59,278 bases of DNA from an uncultured Lachnospiraceae bacterium (lineage in GTDB: Bacteria; Bacillota; Clostridia; Lachnospirales; Lachnospiraceae). Both the position numbers and the translations under genes were made by a program. Location of the stretch: the NCBI GenBank assembly GCA_947179245.1, contig CAMXBD010000002.1:1-59278 (forward strand). The letters are read 5' to 3'. This document shows, in pieces, positions 39,219 to 45,511 of this stretch. The notes under the pieces are model-generated. The model searched no databases. It saw nothing but the letters and a program-made list of their open reading frames with translations, and was not told the origin of the DNA. The first letter of the stretch is position 1. Each line of letters starts with the position of its first letter.

Positions 39219-39230
39219 GAACAAATGTTC
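39219..39230. promoter_or_regulatory. LexA (SOS) box 1
   Basis: GAACAAATGTTC, a perfect match to the Firmicute SOS box GAAC-n4-GTTC, inside a longer dyad AGAACA-AA-TGTTCT. It ends 10 bp upstream of the -35 hexamer. Confidence 0.88.
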
Positions 39231-39240
39231 TAAAAAGGGC

Positions 39241-39269
39241 TTGCAATATATTTTGTGGTGTGGTAAGAT
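39241..39269 (+). promoter_or_regulatory. SOS-controlled promoter
   Basis: TTGCAA, a 17-base spacer and TAAGAT, with a predicted start near 39276. It is enclosed by two identical LexA boxes. Confidence 0.75.
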
Positions 39270-39282
39270 GGACACATAAACA

Positions 39283-39294
39283 GAACAAATGTTC
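39283..39294. promoter_or_regulatory. LexA (SOS) box 2
   Basis: An identical GAACAAATGTTC about 7 bases after the predicted start. It is 64 bp from box 1, about six helical turns, so both boxes face the same side of the DNA. Confidence 0.88.
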
Positions 39295-39361
39295 TGATTT
39301 AGGGATGGTCTGTCAATAGAAGAGACGGAGAGTAGAAATAGCGCGAGTCGTGTAAAGAGTT

Positions 39362-39511
39362 GCAGGCAGCGGTAATGTGAGCAATGCAAAGAGTGCAGGC
39401 AGTGGTAACGTGAGCAATACAAATAGTGTAGACAATGTGAGCAATGTGAGCAATGTGAGCAATGTAGGCGGTGTAAGCAATATAAACAACGCAGGGAATG
39501 CAAGGATGAAG
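39362..39511. repeat. Degenerate 9-bp tandem repeat in the SOS leader
   Basis: Units close to AATGTGAGC repeat through the leader, with three exact copies in a row near 39437-39465 and degraded copies on both sides (GGTGTAAGC, AATGCAAAG). One frame reads as S-N-V repeats up to a stop at 39512, but it has no good start or ribosome site, so no gene is called. Confidence 0.7.
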
Positions 39512-39542
39512 TGAAAGAATAAGTAAAGGGATTTACAGTGTT

Positions 39543-40895
39543 ATGGAAGTCAGGGTTTCGCCGCAGATGTCGATTATGGATAAACTTAAGATTCTTGCGG
39601 ATGCCGCGAAGTATGATGTGTCGTGCAGTTCCAGCGGAGTAAACCGTGGAAATGATGGTACAGGTATCGGCAATGCAGTGGCGGCGGGACTGTGCCACAG
39701 CTTTGCCGCAGACGGCAGATGCATTTCTTTGTTAAAGATATTGTTTACGAATGAATGCATCTATGATTGCAGATACTGCATCAACAGGAAGTCTAATGAT
39801 GTGCCGCGTGCATCTTTTACACCGGACGAAGTCTGCGAATTGACCATGGAATTTTACAGGCGTAATTATATAGAAGGACTTTTCTTAAGCTCCGGCATTT
39901 TGTATAGTCCGAATTATACAATGGAGTTGATTTGTGAGACGGTTCATAAACTGCGCACGGTACACCGATTTCAAGGTTATATCCATCTGAAAGCGATTCC
40001 GGGAGCGGATCCTATGCTGATACAGAAGGCGGGATATCTGGCGGATCGAATGAGCGTGAATTTGGAGATGGCGACAGCGGAAGGCCTACGGGAGATGGCA
40101 CCGAACAAGCACCGTAAGAATATACTGAAACCGATGAGGCAGATTCAGAACGGGATCACGGAGAATAAGAACGAACTAACTTTATATAAACATGCGCCTC
40201 ATTTCTGTGAGGCGGGGCAGTCTACCCAGATGGTGGTGGGTGCGCTGCCGGAGAGTGATTACCAGATTATGTCGGTGGCAGAGAATTTATATGATAAGTT
40301 CTCTTTAAAAAGGGTGTATTATTCTGCTTTTGTGAATGTGAATGAAGATAAGGAACTGCCCGCTTTGACCGGAGGACCACCTCTCTTGCGTGAACACAGG
40401 CTGTATCAGGCGGACTGGCTGTTGAGATTCTATGATTTTAAGGTGGATGAACTGCTGACTGAGAACCGCCCGAATTTTAATATGGCAATCGATCCGAAAG
40501 CAGATTGGGCAGTGAGACATCTGGAAGTATTTCCGGTTGAAATCAATCGTGCAGACTACAAGATATTGCTGCGTATTCCCGGTATTGGTGTCAAGAGCGC
40601 AAAACGAATTATCGCTGCCAGACGGTTCGGACCGTTGACATTTGAAGATTTAAAGAAGATAGGCGTAGTTTTGAAACGTGCGCTGTATTTTATTACATGT
40701 AATGGCAGGATGATGTATCCGACCAAAATCGAAGAGGAGTATATTGTGCGGAATCTGACTTATCAAAATCAGATGGGGAGAGGGGAGAGACTTCCCTTTA
40801 TGCCGGATGGTACGACGTATCGCCAGACTACTTTGTTTGATGATGGAATGATTCTTGGAGCGCAGAGTTACAGGAGTATTTTGCATGGAAGATAA
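39543..40895 (+). CDS. Putative DNA modification/repair radical SAM protein (TIGR03916 type)
   Basis: Radical SAM enzyme of 450 residues. The [4Fe-4S] motif is C72-x3-C76-x2-C79 (ECIYDCRYC), preceded by a conserved start (KLKILADAAKYDVSCSSSG) with extra Cys at 28, 51 and 60. The barrel region runs to about 300. Near 342 is a helix-hairpin-helix element (LLRIPGIGVKSAKRIIAARR), a DNA-binding fold. It overlaps its partner gene by 11 bases. The family has been named by its steady link with a uracil-DNA-glycosylase-like partner; the reaction is not known. The two LexA boxes upstream support a DNA-damage role. Confidence 0.9.
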   Translation: MEVRVSPQMSIMDKLKILADAAKYDVSCSSSGVNRGNDGTGIGNAVAAGLCHSFAADGRCISLLKILFTNECIYDCRYCINRKSNDVPRASFTPDEVCELTMEFYRRNYIEGLFLSSGILYSPNYTMELICETVHKLRTVHRFQGYIHLKAIPGADPMLIQKAGYLADRMSVNLEMATAEGLREMAPNKHRKNILKPMRQIQNGITENKNELTLYKHAPHFCEAGQSTQMVVGALPESDYQIMSVAENLYDKFSLKRVYYSAFVNVNEDKELPALTGGPPLLREHRLYQADWLLRFYDFKVDELLTENRPNFNMAIDPKADWAVRHLEVFPVEINRADYKILLRIPGIGVKSAKRIIAARRFGPLTFEDLKKIGVVLKRALYFITCNGRMMYPTKIEEEYIVRNLTYQNQMGRGERLPFMPDGTTYRQTTLFDDGMILGAQSYRSILHGR

Positions 40896-41658
40896 ATATA
40901 TCATCTGTGAAGACTCGTTGGAGGGAATCCTCACGGCAGTCTATGATGCCTATGCCTTAAGGGAGGGGCATGAGCATCTTCATGTGCAGATAGGAGAAGA
41001 AGAAAATTATAGATTATTTGCAGAATATGTGTATAGTCAGCCCGATTCAGTCAAAACTGATAAGGTGATCCGTACTCTTAAGGAACGTCTGGGACCGGAG
41101 GTGTATGCCGGAATCTGTCGTGCAGCAGCTTCCTATGATAAGGAGAAGGGAGAGGCAATTTACCGCACAGTGGTAGATGGAATCACTGCGGGAAGCGGCA
41201 GGCGGACAATGGAGAATCTGCGTAACCCGTATGTGCGTAAGACATTTGAACTTGCCAGACGCACTGCCAATGAAGCACATCATGAAGTGGAATTTATAAG
41301 ATTTCAAGAACTGGAGTCGGGTATTTTATACTCCAAGATAGGGCCGGAGAACAATGTAGTGCCGTTTGTGATGCCGCATTTTGCCGACAGACTGGCACCG
41401 GAGAATTTTATGATTCATGATGTGAATCGGGATTTATACGGAGTGCATCCGGCTAAAGAAGACTGGTATCTTGTATCGGGCGTGAAAGAAATCGGAAAAG
41501 AGTTGCTGATATGGTCGGATAAAGAATTTAAGTATCAGGAATTATTTACCATTTTCCATCAGACGATTGCGATACAAGAACGTAAGAACAACCGGTTGCA
41601 ACAGCAAATGCTGCCGCTTAGGTTCCAAGATTTTATGGTCGAATTTAATCAAAAGTGA
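40885..41658 (+). CDS. DUF4130 / TIGR03915-type DNA metabolism protein, partner of the radical SAM protein
   Basis: A 257-residue protein of the family always found beside the radical SAM gene. Features include an N-terminal EDSLEGILTAVYDAYALREGH, a middle RNPYVRKTFELARRTANEAHHEVEFIRF, and a DUF4130 C-terminal part (FADRLAPENFMIHDVNRDLYGVH, QTIAIQERKNNRLQQQMLP). Some family members carry a uracil-DNA-glycosylase domain as a fusion; none is seen here. The start at 40885 has AGGAG 9 bases upstream inside the preceding gene. It probably works with the radical SAM enzyme on damaged or modified DNA. Confidence 0.88.
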   Translation: MEDKYIICEDSLEGILTAVYDAYALREGHEHLHVQIGEEENYRLFAEYVYSQPDSVKTDKVIRTLKERLGPEVYAGICRAAASYDKEKGEAIYRTVVDGITAGSGRRTMENLRNPYVRKTFELARRTANEAHHEVEFIRFQELESGILYSKIGPENNVVPFVMPHFADRLAPENFMIHDVNRDLYGVHPAKEDWYLVSGVKEIGKELLIWSDKEFKYQELFTIFHQTIAIQERKNNRLQQQMLPLRFQDFMVEFNQK

Positions 41659-41795: not shown

Positions 41796-41823
41796 TTTAC
41801 AAATACTGACAAAGGAGTATAAT
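41796..41823 (+). promoter_or_regulatory. Promoter of the HPr-like gene
   Basis: TTTACA, a 16-base spacer and perfect TATAAT. The predicted leader is about 75 bases. No LexA box is seen here. Confidence 0.7.
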
Positions 41824-41903
41824 CAACTCAACTGAGGAGAAAGTAAACAAATTTTTCTATGTGTGCCTTTTGCATACATAAATGGAAAAGGAAGGTGAAT
41901 GTA

Positions 41904-42128
41904 ATGCAACACAGAATTAAATTAAGACCGGATGAAGTGAAGGACTTTGTTAGCGCTGCAACAAAATGCATCTTTGACGTAGACATCTCCTACAATAGTT
42001 TTATAGTAGATGCGAAATCGATCATAGGTGTGCTGGGACTCAATTTTAATCAGGTTCTGACCGTTTCATGTAATGGATATGATGCTGATTTCGAGAAATA
42101 TCTCAGTAAATTTGCAGTAGCATGTTAA
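41904..42128 (+). CDS. HPr-like protein without the active-site histidine
   Basis: A 74-residue HPr-fold protein. KSIIGVLGL matches the HPr region around regulatory Ser46, and the last helix (YDADFEKYLSKFAVAC) fits the fold. The usual GxHARPA segment with His15 is missing; the N-terminal segment reads LRPDEVKDFVSAAT. It cannot act as a normal PTS phosphocarrier. A role as a Ser-phosphorylated regulator, like Crh of Bacillus, is possible. The ATG at 41904 has GAAGGTG upstream; the longer frame to 41859 is not needed. Confidence 0.8.
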   Translation: MQHRIKLRPDEVKDFVSAATKCIFDVDISYNSFIVDAKSIIGVLGLNFNQVLTVSCNGYDADFEKYLSKFAVAC

Positions 42129-42160
42129 TGATATAATCCGGAACAAACACGACGCATTGA

Positions 42161-42203
42161 CTCCTTATTTAAGATAGCGTAATATCTTAAATAGGGAGTT
42201 TTT
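42161..42203 (+). terminator. Intrinsic terminator
   Basis: CTCCTTATTTAAGATA pairs with TATCTTAAATAGGGAG (one mismatch), a 6-base loop and five T. It separates the HPr-like gene from the helicase gene. Confidence 0.85.
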
Positions 42204-42229
42204 GTGATTTGCGGAAGGGAAAAGAGTGT

Positions 42230-44641
42230 ATGGAAATTCGCATTTCTGTCAGGAGTCTCGTGGAATTTATTCTGCGTTCCGGCGATATTGACAATAGAAG
42301 AACGGCATCTCCTGAAAATGCGATGCAGGAGGGCAGCCGGATACATCGTATGATACAGCGGCGCATGGGACCGGAGTATCAGGCGGAGGTAGGACTTAAG
42401 TATGTCTATGATTCAGGAGAATATGAGATCATTGTGGAGGGACGCGCTGATGGTATCATTACACAAGCGGCCATGGAGACACAAAAGGTCACAGTCACCA
42501 TAGATGAGATCAAGGGAGTTTTCCGGGATATCAAGAAAATGAAGGACTCCGTACCGGTGCATCTGGCGCAGGCGAAATGTTATGCCTATATTTATGCGCA
42601 GCAGAAAGCATTAAAGGAAATCCGTGTGCGGATGACGTATTGTCATATAGAAACAGAGGAAATCCGCTATTTTCATTATGACTTTACTTTTGAGGAACTG
42701 CAGGACTGGTTCATGGATGTTATGGGGCAGTACCGCAAGTGGGCGGACTATTCTTTTGCGTGGCAAGGGATTAGACAGGATTCTATCAAGAAGCTTCAAT
42801 TTCCTTTTGTATACAGAGAGGGACAGAAGGAGCTGGCTACTTACGTTTATCAGACGATCTACCACAAGAGAAAGCTATTTATTGAAGCGCCTACCGGCGT
42901 GGGAAAGACGATTTCCACGGTTTTTCCCGCAGTGAAAGCTATGGGCGAAGGAATGTGTGAGAGGATATTCTACCTGACGGCGAAGACGATTACACGCACG
43001 GTAGCCGATAACACTTTTTCCCTATTGAGGGAGCATGGATTAAAGTTTAAGAGTGTCGTACTGACGGCGAAGGACAAGATTTGTTTTATGGAGGAGACAG
43101 AGTGTAATCCGGAGCATTGCCCTTATGCCAAAGGACATTATGACAGGATTAATGACGCTATGTACGATCTGCTTACTAATGAGGATGTGTATAGCAGAGA
43201 TATGATAGAGGAATATGCGAAAAAGCATAGCGTGTGCCCGTTCGAGATGTGTCTTGATATGAGTCTGTTTTCCGATGCGGTTATCTGTGATTATAATTAT
43301 GTCTTTGATCCGCATGTATATTTGAGAAGGTTTTTCACAGAAGGGATTCAGGGAGAGTATATTTTTCTTATAGATGAGGCGCATAATCTGGTGGAGCGAG
43401 GCAGAGACATGTACAGTGCGGTACTGTGCAAGGAAGATTTTCTGGAATTAAAGCGGACGGTCAAGGCATATGATGAGCGGATTGCGAAAAATCTGGATAA
43501 ATGCAATAAGGAACTGCTTGTACTAAAGCGGGAATGTGAAAACTACAGGATAGAGGAGTATATAGATCCTTTTGTGCGTGCGCTTACAAGGCTTAGTGCG
43601 GCAATTGATGATTATCTGGAGGATCACGAGGACAGCCCGGTGCGCAAGGATGTATTGGAATTTTATTTTGAAGTATCGCATTTTCTGGAAATGTACGAGC
43701 TGGTGGATGAGAATTACGTGACATATTCGGAGATGGAATCGGATGGCAGTTTTATCTTGAAGCTCTTCTGCGTCAACCCGGCGAAAAATCTGCGGGAATG
43801 TATGATGCGGGGCAGGAGTACGATTTTGTTCTCGGCAACGCTTCTGCCAATACAATATTATAAGAAGCTTCTCGGAGCGGATGAGGGTGACTATGAAGTG
43901 TATGCCAAGTCTGTTTTTCGTCCGGAAAAGATGGGGCTCTACATCGGCAGTGATGTGACCAGCAAGTATACGCGCAGGAGCGATGAGGAATATTATCGCA
44001 TTGCTTCTTATATTAATGAGGTGGTACAGAAAAGACACGGCAATTACATGCTGTTCTTTCCATCCCATGCTTTCCTCCGGCAGACATATGATATCTATAT
44101 GCATTATTTCAATGCGGATGAGGCAGTAGAGTGTATTGTGCAAGAAGATTATATGAACGAGCAGGCAAGGGAGGAATTCCTAAGCAGGTTTACAGGAAAT
44201 GAAGACTGTGACCTAAATGCCATGATACAGATGGAGATAGAGATTGAGGAAGAACGAAGTCTGCTGGGATTCTGCGTGATGGGCGGAATTTTCAGCGAAG
44301 GGATAGATTTGAAGAATGACAGCCTGATCGGGGCAGTCATTATCGGCACAGGGCTTCCGCAGGTATGCAATGAGAGAGAACTGTTGAAACAATACTTCGA
44401 TGGATGGGGTGAGAACGGCTTTGATTATGCCTATCGTTATCCCGGCATGAATAAAGTACTGCAGGCGGCAGGAAGAGTCATCCGTACCGTAGATGATTTC
44501 GGTATCGTAGCGTTGCTGGATGAACGCTTCCTGACACCTGCATATCAGAGACTCTTCCCAAGAGAGTGGAATAACTGTGAGGTCGTGACTGTTGACCGTA
44601 TAGGTCATAAGATCGAACGCTTCTGGGATGAGTGGCTGTGA
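42230..44641 (+). CDS. Nuclease-helicase: Cas4/AddB-like N-terminus plus DinG/XPD helicase
   Basis: An 803-residue ATP-dependent DNA helicase. The N-terminal part (1-130) carries a PD-(D/E)xK-like nuclease pattern: VEGRADGI near 68 and IDEIKG near 95, like Cas4-type nucleases. The superfamily 2 XPD/DinG helicase follows: Walker A APTGVGKT near 221, DEAH in IDEAHN near 381, and an Fe-S cluster region with CFMEETECNPEHC near 284 and VCPFEMC near 335. C-terminal motifs: ILFSATLLP, FFPSHAFLRQ, GGIFSEGID and QAAGRVIRT. It probably repairs or unwinds damaged DNA. The ATG at 42230 has GGAAGGGA upstream. Confidence 0.9.
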   Translation: MEIRISVRSLVEFILRSGDIDNRRTASPENAMQEGSRIHRMIQRRMGPEYQAEVGLKYVYDSGEYEIIVEGRADGIITQAAMETQKVTVTIDEIKGVFRDIKKMKDSVPVHLAQAKCYAYIYAQQKALKEIRVRMTYCHIETEEIRYFHYDFTFEELQDWFMDVMGQYRKWADYSFAWQGIRQDSIKKLQFPFVYREGQKELATYVYQTIYHKRKLFIEAPTGVGKTISTVFPAVKAMGEGMCERIFYLTAKTITRTVADNTFSLLREHGLKFKSVVLTAKDKICFMEETECNPEHCPYAKGHYDRINDAMYDLLTNEDVYSRDMIEEYAKKHSVCPFEMCLDMSLFSDAVICDYNYVFDPHVYLRRFFTEGIQGEYIFLIDEAHNLVERGRDMYSAVLCKEDFLELKRTVKAYDERIAKNLDKCNKELLVLKRECENYRIEEYIDPFVRALTRLSAAIDDYLEDHEDSPVRKDVLEFYFEVSHFLEMYELVDENYVTYSEMESDGSFILKLFCVNPAKNLRECMMRGRSTILFSATLLPIQYYKKLLGADEGDYEVYAKSVFRPEKMGLYIGSDVTSKYTRRSDEEYYRIASYINEVVQKRHGNYMLFFPSHAFLRQTYDIYMHYFNADEAVECIVQEDYMNEQAREEFLSRFTGNEDCDLNAMIQMEIEIEEERSLLGFCVMGGIFSEGIDLKNDSLIGAVIIGTGLPQVCNERELLKQYFDGWGENGFDYAYRYPGMNKVLQAAGRVIRTVDDFGIVALLDERFLTPAYQRLFPREWNNCEVVTVDRIGHKIERFWDEWL

Positions 44642-44647
44642 AGCTTC

Positions 44648-45511
44648 TTATGACTGCCGCAGAAGTGCGATTTCCTCCTTATAGGGAGCAACCTTCTTGT
44701 CTGAATTAGTCAATGATGGAATATAAGGCGTCTCCAATATCTTAGGTAAGCTTATGAAGTCGGGGTGATGGACAATATAGCGTAAAGCATCCGTGCCAAT
44801 GGTTCCATCGCCAATATTAGCGTGCCGGTCTTTACTGGCGCCGCGTTCATTCTTACTGTCGTTAATGTGAAATAACGCAATCTGGTCTTTTCCGATTAAT
44901 TGATCAAATTGGTCAATCACTCCGTCGAAGTCGTGAACGATATCATAACCAGCATCATTTAAATGGCATGTGTCCATACAGACGCGCAGTTTGTCACTGT
45001 GGGTGACTTTGTCATAGATAGCGGCAAGTTCCTCGAAGTTTCGTCCAATCTCGGAACCTTTACCCGCCATAGTCTCTAAGGCAATATAGCAGTCCTGCTC
45101 TTTCGACAGCACTTCATTCAATCCTTGAGCAATTCGGTCAATACCTATATCGACACCTGCTCCTACATGTGAGCCGGGGTGCAGGATCAGGATATGGGAG
45201 CCCATAGCAATCGTGCGCTCAATCTCCAGTGCGAGAAATTCTACCGCAATTTCATAAGTGGACGGATTGACCGTGTTAGCCAGATTAATAATATAGGGTG
45301 CGTGGACTACGAAATCATCAATATTATTGGCACGCATATACTCCCATGCGGGAGCAATGTTCAGTTCAGAGATATCCTTACGTTTTGTATTCTGCGGAGC
45401 GCCTGTGTATAACATGAACGTATCGGCATCATAGGAGACGGCTTCTTTCACGGAACCAAGCATCATCTCTTTGCCGCTCATACCTACATGAGAACCTAAT
45501 TTGGGATTCAT
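44648..45511 (-). CDS. nfo: Deoxyribonuclease IV (AP endonuclease)
   Basis: Endonuclease IV family enzyme that cuts DNA at abasic sites, using a TIM barrel with three metal ions. It starts [14 protein letters not shown], then [53 protein letters not shown] and [23 protein letters not shown], all typical metal-ligand regions. At 287 residues it matches the family. It is convergent with the helicase gene, with 6 bp between stops. With the radical SAM pair and helicase it makes a repair neighbourhood. Confidence 0.96.

Follow-up and report, generated by a model that had tools for sequence, protein, structure and literature searches.

A radical SAM/DUF4130 gene pair behind conserved LexA-type boxes, with a clamp-type tail motif: a predicted module of the SOS response

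Introduction

Pairs of genes that join a radical S-adenosylmethionine (SAM) enzyme to a second protein have been placed under LexA control by prediction more than once. In C. acetobutylicum, LexA control of CAC3343-CAC3344, a radical SAM gene and a gene of unknown function, was predicted in 2013 (PMC3828012), and in Bacteroidetes SOS control of the pair COG1573-COG4277 was predicted in 2021 by a study that refers to previous reports in Verrucomicrobia and Alphaproteobacteria and describes the operon as a putative system for base excision repair (PMC8565304). In the excerpts of PMC3828012, neither a clamp motif nor a function is stated for the pair. The current study concerns a gene pair of this kind in a stretch of 59,278 nucleotides, referred to throughout as the window (positions 1 to 59,278 of contig CAMXBD010000002.1, assembly GCA_947179245.1), from an uncultured Lachnospiraceae bacterium. 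Its first gene encodes a radical SAM protein of family TIGR03916, or rSAM_link_UDG, its second a partner of family TIGR03915 (DUF4130), and two LexA-type boxes bracket their promoter.

DUF4130 has been predicted to be an enzyme related to mutagenesis and has been associated with SplB-like enzymes and uracil-DNA glycosylases (PMC3765255), SplB itself is predicted to be SOS-regulated in Alpha- and Betaproteobacteria (PMC3323433), and the LexA targets of Streptomyces include an unnamed radical SAM protein (PMC9380542). Neither TIGR03916 nor TIGR03915 is named in the open-access literature searched, and the excerpts of PMC12700426 and PMC6120978 are silent on the gene pair. For the sliding clamp, the binding consensus is given as QL[S/D]LF or QxxLF, with QLSLPL as a tight binder (PMC12309361), and also as QLxLF (PMC4549789). 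A preliminary description of the window had offered the locus as a candidate undescribed system, a proposal that does not hold, as both families are curated and LexA or SOS control of the pair was predicted in the 2013 and 2021 reports just mentioned. Since such control is already in print, our results on regulation are a confirmation and an extension.

Results

Two identical copies of GAACAAATGTTC lie at 39219-39230 and 39283-39294 (no strand assigned), 64 bp apart, and these are the sole matches to GAACNNNNGTTC in the window. Between them, read from the sequence on the forward strand, are a -35 element (TTGCAA, 39241-39246) and a -10 element (TAAGAT, 39264-39269) separated by a 17-bp spacer; a TG located one base upstream of the -10 element makes it an extended -10. 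The operon begins with the 450-amino-acid TIGR03916 protein (39543-40895, forward strand; 686.8 bits against a curated NCBIfam cut-off of 343.5), the end of which is overlapped by the start of the 257-amino-acid partner (40885-41658, forward strand; TIGR03915 at 205.7 bits with a cut-off of 112.25, and PF13566 at 145.9 bits with a cut-off of 27). Both the boxed TTGCAA-n17-TAAGAT promoter and the pairing of a TIGR03916 radical SAM protein bearing a helix-hairpin-helix with a TIGR03915 partner, as claimed in the preliminary description, were thus borne out, the latter by profile matches. The bare box pattern is not significant at the scale of the window, as shuffled windows hold a mean of 0.58 sites matching GAACNNNNGTTC and at least two in 10/100 shuffles; its significance comes instead from the way the two identical copies flank a promoter at a distance of 64 bp from each other and from their conservation in relatives. 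The promoter itself is a weak match to consensus (8/12 by our own count) and is not listed by a promoter scan with a threshold of 9/12; its support comes from the genus, where two boxes enclose a TTGnnn-16/18-TAnnnT pair in 49/57 loci.

TIGR03916 is present in 57/60 genomes of the genus, the window genome included. Exact boxes were found in 29 of the first 30 genus loci compared (among as much as 600 bp of upstream DNA, where available), the thirtieth having two one-mismatch boxes in their place, and across all 57 loci, the window locus counted, an exact GAAC-n4-GTTC occurs within 400 bp upstream in 56, while each of 11 permuted half-site palindromes scores 0/57 in the same 400 bp. Two boxes are present in 50 of these loci and one box in seven. 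The preliminary description had also argued that the 64-bp spacing sets both boxes on the same face of the DNA. Across 49 genus loci, however, the spacing ranges from 53 to 66 bp, with 58 the commonest value, so helical phase is not kept.

In the class, 99/246 genomes have a TIGR03916 match over cut-off. The class sample, taken outside of the genus, consisted of 100 loci (98 over cut-off and two below it, L179 and L180), other sub-cut-off places and a split match in G077 being left out. Exact boxes lie within 300 bp upstream in 11/100 loci, and a box with at most one mismatch in 82/100, as opposed to 2-14 for permuted palindromes; a de novo palindrome search ranks AACA-n2-TGTT top, in 68/100 class loci where 1.1 would be expected. 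The case made in the preliminary description hinged upon finding GAAC-n4-GTTC upstream of TIGR03916 homologues, and it is indeed conserved in the genus and, with up to one mismatch, in the class. A stricter rule with restricted centre bases, which was set after the one-mismatch count and drops one exact site (L080), was used for LexA co-occurrence and for the named loci described below. With L179 and L180 set aside, a box by this rule precedes 74/90 class loci whose genomes have a strong LexA match, as against 3/8 where the match is weak or absent (Fisher p=0.011, exploratory). Boxed class loci have a single box in 73/77 cases, unlike the genus of the window, in which two boxes bracket the promoter. 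Furthermore, in 63 of the same 98 loci the box ends in GTTT rather than GTTC, and a TAnnnT follows by 16-18 bp a hexamer starting at box position 11 in 53/63 of them, compared with 14% of random TT anchors; 50 of the 63 have an extended -10. This comparison requires at the -35 position nothing beyond the TT that the box itself supplies, and GTTTGA is found in just 30/63. We infer that in class loci the altered last base of the box serves an overlapping -35 element. Some class genomes also encode sub-cut-off TIGR03916 relatives (about 306-325 bits), possibly a sister family; neither a DUF4130 gene nor a box was found beside L179 and L180.

Named genomes and other phyla extend this picture. Among the named loci, which are the best 80 of 592 and in which close relatives are over-represented, a box is found in 54/80, with a density of 3.1 per kb upstream and 0.04 per kb elsewhere. 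Of the 158 plasmid records that contain a homologue, ten were examined, six from Alphaproteobacteria, two from Betaproteobacteria, and one each from Parabacteroides and Acetoanaerobium (Clostridia). GAAC-n7-GAAC lies no more than 40 bp from the start codon as annotated in 6/6 alphaproteobacterial loci; each of 11 permuted repeats scores 0/6, and GAAC-n7-GAAC has a single match in 35 kb elsewhere. CTGT-n8-ACAG is present in 2/2 betaproteobacterial loci, found by pattern in Caballeronia and read from the sequence in Cupriavidus, for which the annotation lacks the true start codon. We take these two motifs to be the LexA operators of Alpha- and Betaproteobacteria, respectively. The Acetoanaerobium locus has the clostridial box with one mismatch, while in Parabacteroides a GGA-n5-TCC match occurs only far upstream (-211). 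Homologues were also encountered in two viral contigs (L261 and L262) and in ten phage records (H41-H50), eight of these being of human faecal origin, and could in either case be prophage cargo or contamination.

It is conceivable that the boxes bind some other repressor, or that their conservation reflects close kinship and nothing else. In keeping with this, two bare boxes per window are not rare in shuffles and the exact dyad is not enriched in the window genome, a draft of 233 contigs and 87.6% completeness, where it occurs at 38 places compared with 45 for a reversed control; enrichment of the bare dyad genome-wide is thereby ruled out. Nevertheless, boxes of this type are found at 5/6 of the lexA loci in the genus, and at three the sequence is GAACAAATGTTC without change (at L097, the remaining locus, no box occurs in the 2,150 bases, a length that suggests little upstream DNA), and boxes with A/T-rich centres precede genes of the window genome recognised by eye alone as recA and uvrB. 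An operator conserved before orthologues and shared with lexA is the mark of a LexA regulon, and the LexA-type operators of other kinds in other phyla and the class-wide de novo recovery of the box likewise make another repressor or mere kinship a highly improbable account. Separately, locus L047 of the window genome has GAACATATGTTC at 1501 with a one-mismatch box 27 bp away at 1528, 5' of a short gene that by eye is DUF1653-like and is a further candidate LexA target, and box-like sites with A/T-rich centres before short genes at about 793 of L007 and about 238 of L015 (GAACTAATGTTC and GAACAAATGTTC) mark additional candidates.

The second conserved feature of the pair is the tail of the radical SAM protein, which was left out of the preliminary description. 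Following a variable linker, the tail has a glutamine that is invariant in the three enzyme alignments A1 (59), A3 (81) and A6 (15) and stands within a QLSLF-like sequence. In the window protein, alignments and motif counts place this element at Q428-T-T-L-F432 (codons 40824-40838, forward strand), which keeps positions 1, 4 and 5 of the QL[S/D]LF clamp-binding motif and fits the QxxLF form alone. Among 233 of the 237 tails (L177, L178 and L179, which are short, and L180, which is below cut-off, were left out), a broad clamp motif is present in 215 and the strict form Q[LM][SD]LF in 112, while shuffled tails gave 0.085 strict and 13.2 broad matches (broad maximum 23) and the tails of 608 other open reading frames in the named loci gave no strict and 19 broad matches. 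By set, the broad and strict forms occur in 51/55 and 40/55 genus tails, 86/98 and 18/98 class tails outside the genus, and 78/80 and 54/80 named-set tails. The 233 tails are not independent, as some genomes may sit in both the named and the other sets; a recount after thinning to below 80% identity gave 131/137 broad and 62/137 strict, with 7.3 broad in shuffles (maximum 16). In all ten plasmid-record proteins QLx[LI] stands at the end or close to it, in the forms QLSLF, QLALF, QLTLF, QLSLL, QLSLI, QLALL, QLSIF or QLILPF (strict in two), and all eight proteobacterial proteins terminate exactly at the motif; the tail of a Hymenobacter protein (L256) is QLDLF. The pentapeptide by which clamp clients are recognised, QL[S/D]LF or QxxLF, is present, in its broad form, in most of these tails. 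This conserved clamp-type tail of TIGR03916 seems to be new, since no earlier description of it appears among the open-access matches listed.

As a whole the enzyme is well conserved, A1 members being 43-70% identical to the window protein. Its Pfam domains are Radical_SAM and the C-terminal helix-hairpin-helix PF12836 (28.2 bits, cut-off 27), with the helix-hairpin-helix core IPGIGVKSAKRIIAAR placed by this match and by alignment at 40575-40622 (forward strand). The radical SAM cluster motif C72-x3-C76-x2-C79 (codons 39756-39779, forward strand) is invariant in A1, A3 and A6, as are C51, H52 and C60, and C28 is invariant in two of these alignments and nearly so in the third; these extra conserved residues hint at a second metal site. 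Compared with solved structures, the enzyme matched only helix-hairpin-helix proteins and radical SAM cores, in each case weakly and locally. Given that DUF4130 has been grouped with SplB-like radical SAM photolyases (PMC3765255), the enzyme might belong to the spore photoproduct lyase family and directly reverse thymine photoproducts. We consider this very improbable, as no spore photoproduct lyase family is among the Pfam or NCBIfam matches of the window protein at E<=0.001, and UV damage hardly explains the near-universal presence of the enzyme in a genus for which many of the named relatives are gut or faecal assemblies, a habitat inferred from their names.

DUF4130 accompanies the enzyme almost everywhere. 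The gene is located downstream on the same strand in 148/157 genus and class loci and is present in 77/80 named loci; among the nine genus and class loci lacking it, the downstream DNA amounts to no more than 105 bases in four and exceeds 1,100 in five. For 144 of the 148 genes, the reading frame opens at most 400 bp from the point where the radical SAM profile match stops. The partner is poorly conserved (15-60% identity in alignment A2), and its residues 4-105 (40894-41199) also match the phage family phrog_6306 (2e-15). In seven annotated proteobacterial records the partner is a "UdgX family uracil-DNA binding protein", and the two that were scanned consist of TIGR03915 followed by TIGR03914, a uracil-DNA glycosylase (UDG) domain, while the Parabacteroides partner is DUF4130 alone. 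Likewise, no UDG domain was detected in the window partner, which is DUF4130 alone, or in 75 partners of alignment A4, which match TIGR03915 and no UDG model; this suggests that the radical SAM protein and DUF4130 form the core unit. 

The proteobacterial fusions raise the possibility that the pair is the front end of base excision repair directed at uracil or a kindred product of base deamination or oxidation, with the enzyme making the lesion removable by a glycosylase and DUF4130 delivering it to a UDG that is fused in Proteobacteria and separate in Clostridia. The fusion in both scanned partners agrees with such a role, as does a G[KR][RK]R[IL]H stretch shared by seven DUF4130-fused UDG-type domains, which resembles the KRRIH loop of UdgX. 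The window genome moreover has two UDG-superfamily matches over cut-off, in frames of 255 and 168 amino acids, and the description of the operon in PMC8565304 points in the same direction. However, a UDG is dispensable for the core function if the window, A4 and Parabacteroides partners are a guide. We regard a role as helper of excision as rather unlikely.

Another possibility is DNA modification in place of repair, with the enzyme adding a modification to bases once the SOS response is under way. Radical SAM chemistry can install groups, and the NCBIfam name leaves modification open. This too is improbable, as repair is the better fit for LexA-type boxes that differ in kind across several phyla, a family found in 57/60 genus genomes does not resemble a mobile modification system, and no PADLOC model matches either protein of the pair at E<=0.01, a result that also speaks against a defence system.

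Between the boxes and the gene, a leader (39295-39542, forward strand; from repeat scan and locus comparison) has tandem repeats at 39354-39489 with 33-bp, 9-bp and 18-bp units, one frame of which reads N/S/V-rich. The distance from box 2 to the gene is the longest among the 30 genus loci compared, and the RNA fold of the leader has a z-score of -2.3. Downstream of the pair, a short HPr-like protein (41859-42128; PF00381 at 23.2 bits, cut-off 23), also found in 16/80 named loci, is followed by an XPD/DinG-like helicase (42209-44641). The helicase matches the PADLOC type IV DinG model PDLC01439 at 395 bits, which probably reflects general DinG kinship. A longer operon reaching into the helicase is opposed by a promoter-like site (41796-41823) and a terminator-like hairpin (42159-42200), of kinds that also arise in shuffles, and by the presence of the helicase downstream in the same direction in just 17/80 named loci. 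An endonuclease IV gene (nfo, 44648-45511, opposite strand) adjoins the helicase; it was found in 0/80 named loci, most of which end before its place.

Discussion

On comparative sequence evidence, the pair is real and well conserved, a predicted SOS module composed of known families. The most probable interpretation, to which we assign a likelihood of roughly 60%, is that it encodes an SOS-induced, clamp-recruited radical SAM module acting on damaged bases, with DUF4130 as its partner. Boxes, promoter, gene pair, domains and tail motif are identified by sequence comparison, and from them we infer the following course of events. In the undamaged cell, LexA would occupy both boxes around the promoter and keep it off. 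Upon DNA damage, LexA would be cleaved and both genes co-transcribed. The C-terminal QxxLF-type tail would then recruit the radical SAM protein to the sliding clamp, where its helix-hairpin-helix may hold the DNA, and a SAM-derived radical would be used on a damaged base, most likely a pyrimidine-derived one, at or behind the fork. DUF4130 would either bind the lesion or complete its processing, a lesion role for which the DUF4130-UdgX-type uracil-DNA-binding fusion in Proteobacteria can be cited. Membership of the DNA damage response has strong comparative-genomic support, although the preliminary description went too far in calling the boxes direct regulatory evidence, since a conserved operator is predictive only.

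Several observations weigh against this interpretation. Firstly, lexA was not found in the window draft genome; as 51/60 genus genomes have lexA over cut-off, we read its absence as an assembly gap. Secondly, the boxes are not universal: 18/100 class loci have none at up to one mismatch, and by the stricter rule none is present in 21/98 class loci, 16 of them in genomes with strong LexA matches, or in 26/80 named loci. Thirdly, a clamp motif is no proof of clamp binding. The broad pattern was widened after the alignment had been seen, 18/233 proteins lack even this form, the strict motif is confined to 112/233 proteins and to 18/98 in the class outside the genus, and the window tail departs from the consensus at two of its five positions. 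Lastly, the idea that DUF4130 is a hidden UDG found no support (hhalign probability 0.1%), and its search for solved relatives returned two matches, both at chance level.

A more specific version of the clamp-recruited repair module, which we put forward as a tentative and rather doubtful possibility, is that TIGR03916 enzymes are SOS-induced and clamp-docked, reverse or convert lesions in place, and have a second metal site at C28, C51, C60 and H52. If true, TIGR03916 would be a direct-repair counterpart to the clamp-bound translesion polymerases, letting the fork pass. Whichever version applies, a family known only by association is found behind LexA-type operators of three kinds, and its clamp-type tail spans Bacillota, Bacteroidota, and Alpha- and Betaproteobacteria. 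The question of TIGR03916/TIGR03915 function is hereby narrowed to claims that can be put to the test, namely induction by damage, binding to DnaN and a base lesion encountered at forks. Should the clamp-recruited module prove correct, radical chemistry would join the polymerases and mismatch repair as a DNA damage response delivered by the clamp.

When compared with known systems, the pair is closest to those already predicted to be SOS-controlled. COG1573-COG4277 shares this predicted control, and COG4277 is presumably the TIGR03916-type radical SAM/helix-hairpin-helix family, whereas its partner is a UDG (COG1573) and that of the window is DUF4130 alone. The proteobacterial UdgX-type fusions (TIGR03914 with TIGR03915) have the same TIGR03916 enzyme, the same DUF4130 and boxes of the local LexA type, yet carry an extra C-terminal UDG-superfamily domain that the window partner lacks. 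SplB resembles the window protein as a radical SAM enzyme linked to DNA repair, and differs in that the window protein has no match to the spore photoproduct lyase family, the comparison being one of family models. The clamp-bound SOS polymerases, which are SOS-induced and have a clamp motif of the QL[S/D]LF type, offer a functional parallel without shared membership: predicted SOS induction and a motif of this type are common to both, while the protein presumably brought to the clamp is a polymerase in the one case and a radical SAM enzyme in the other.

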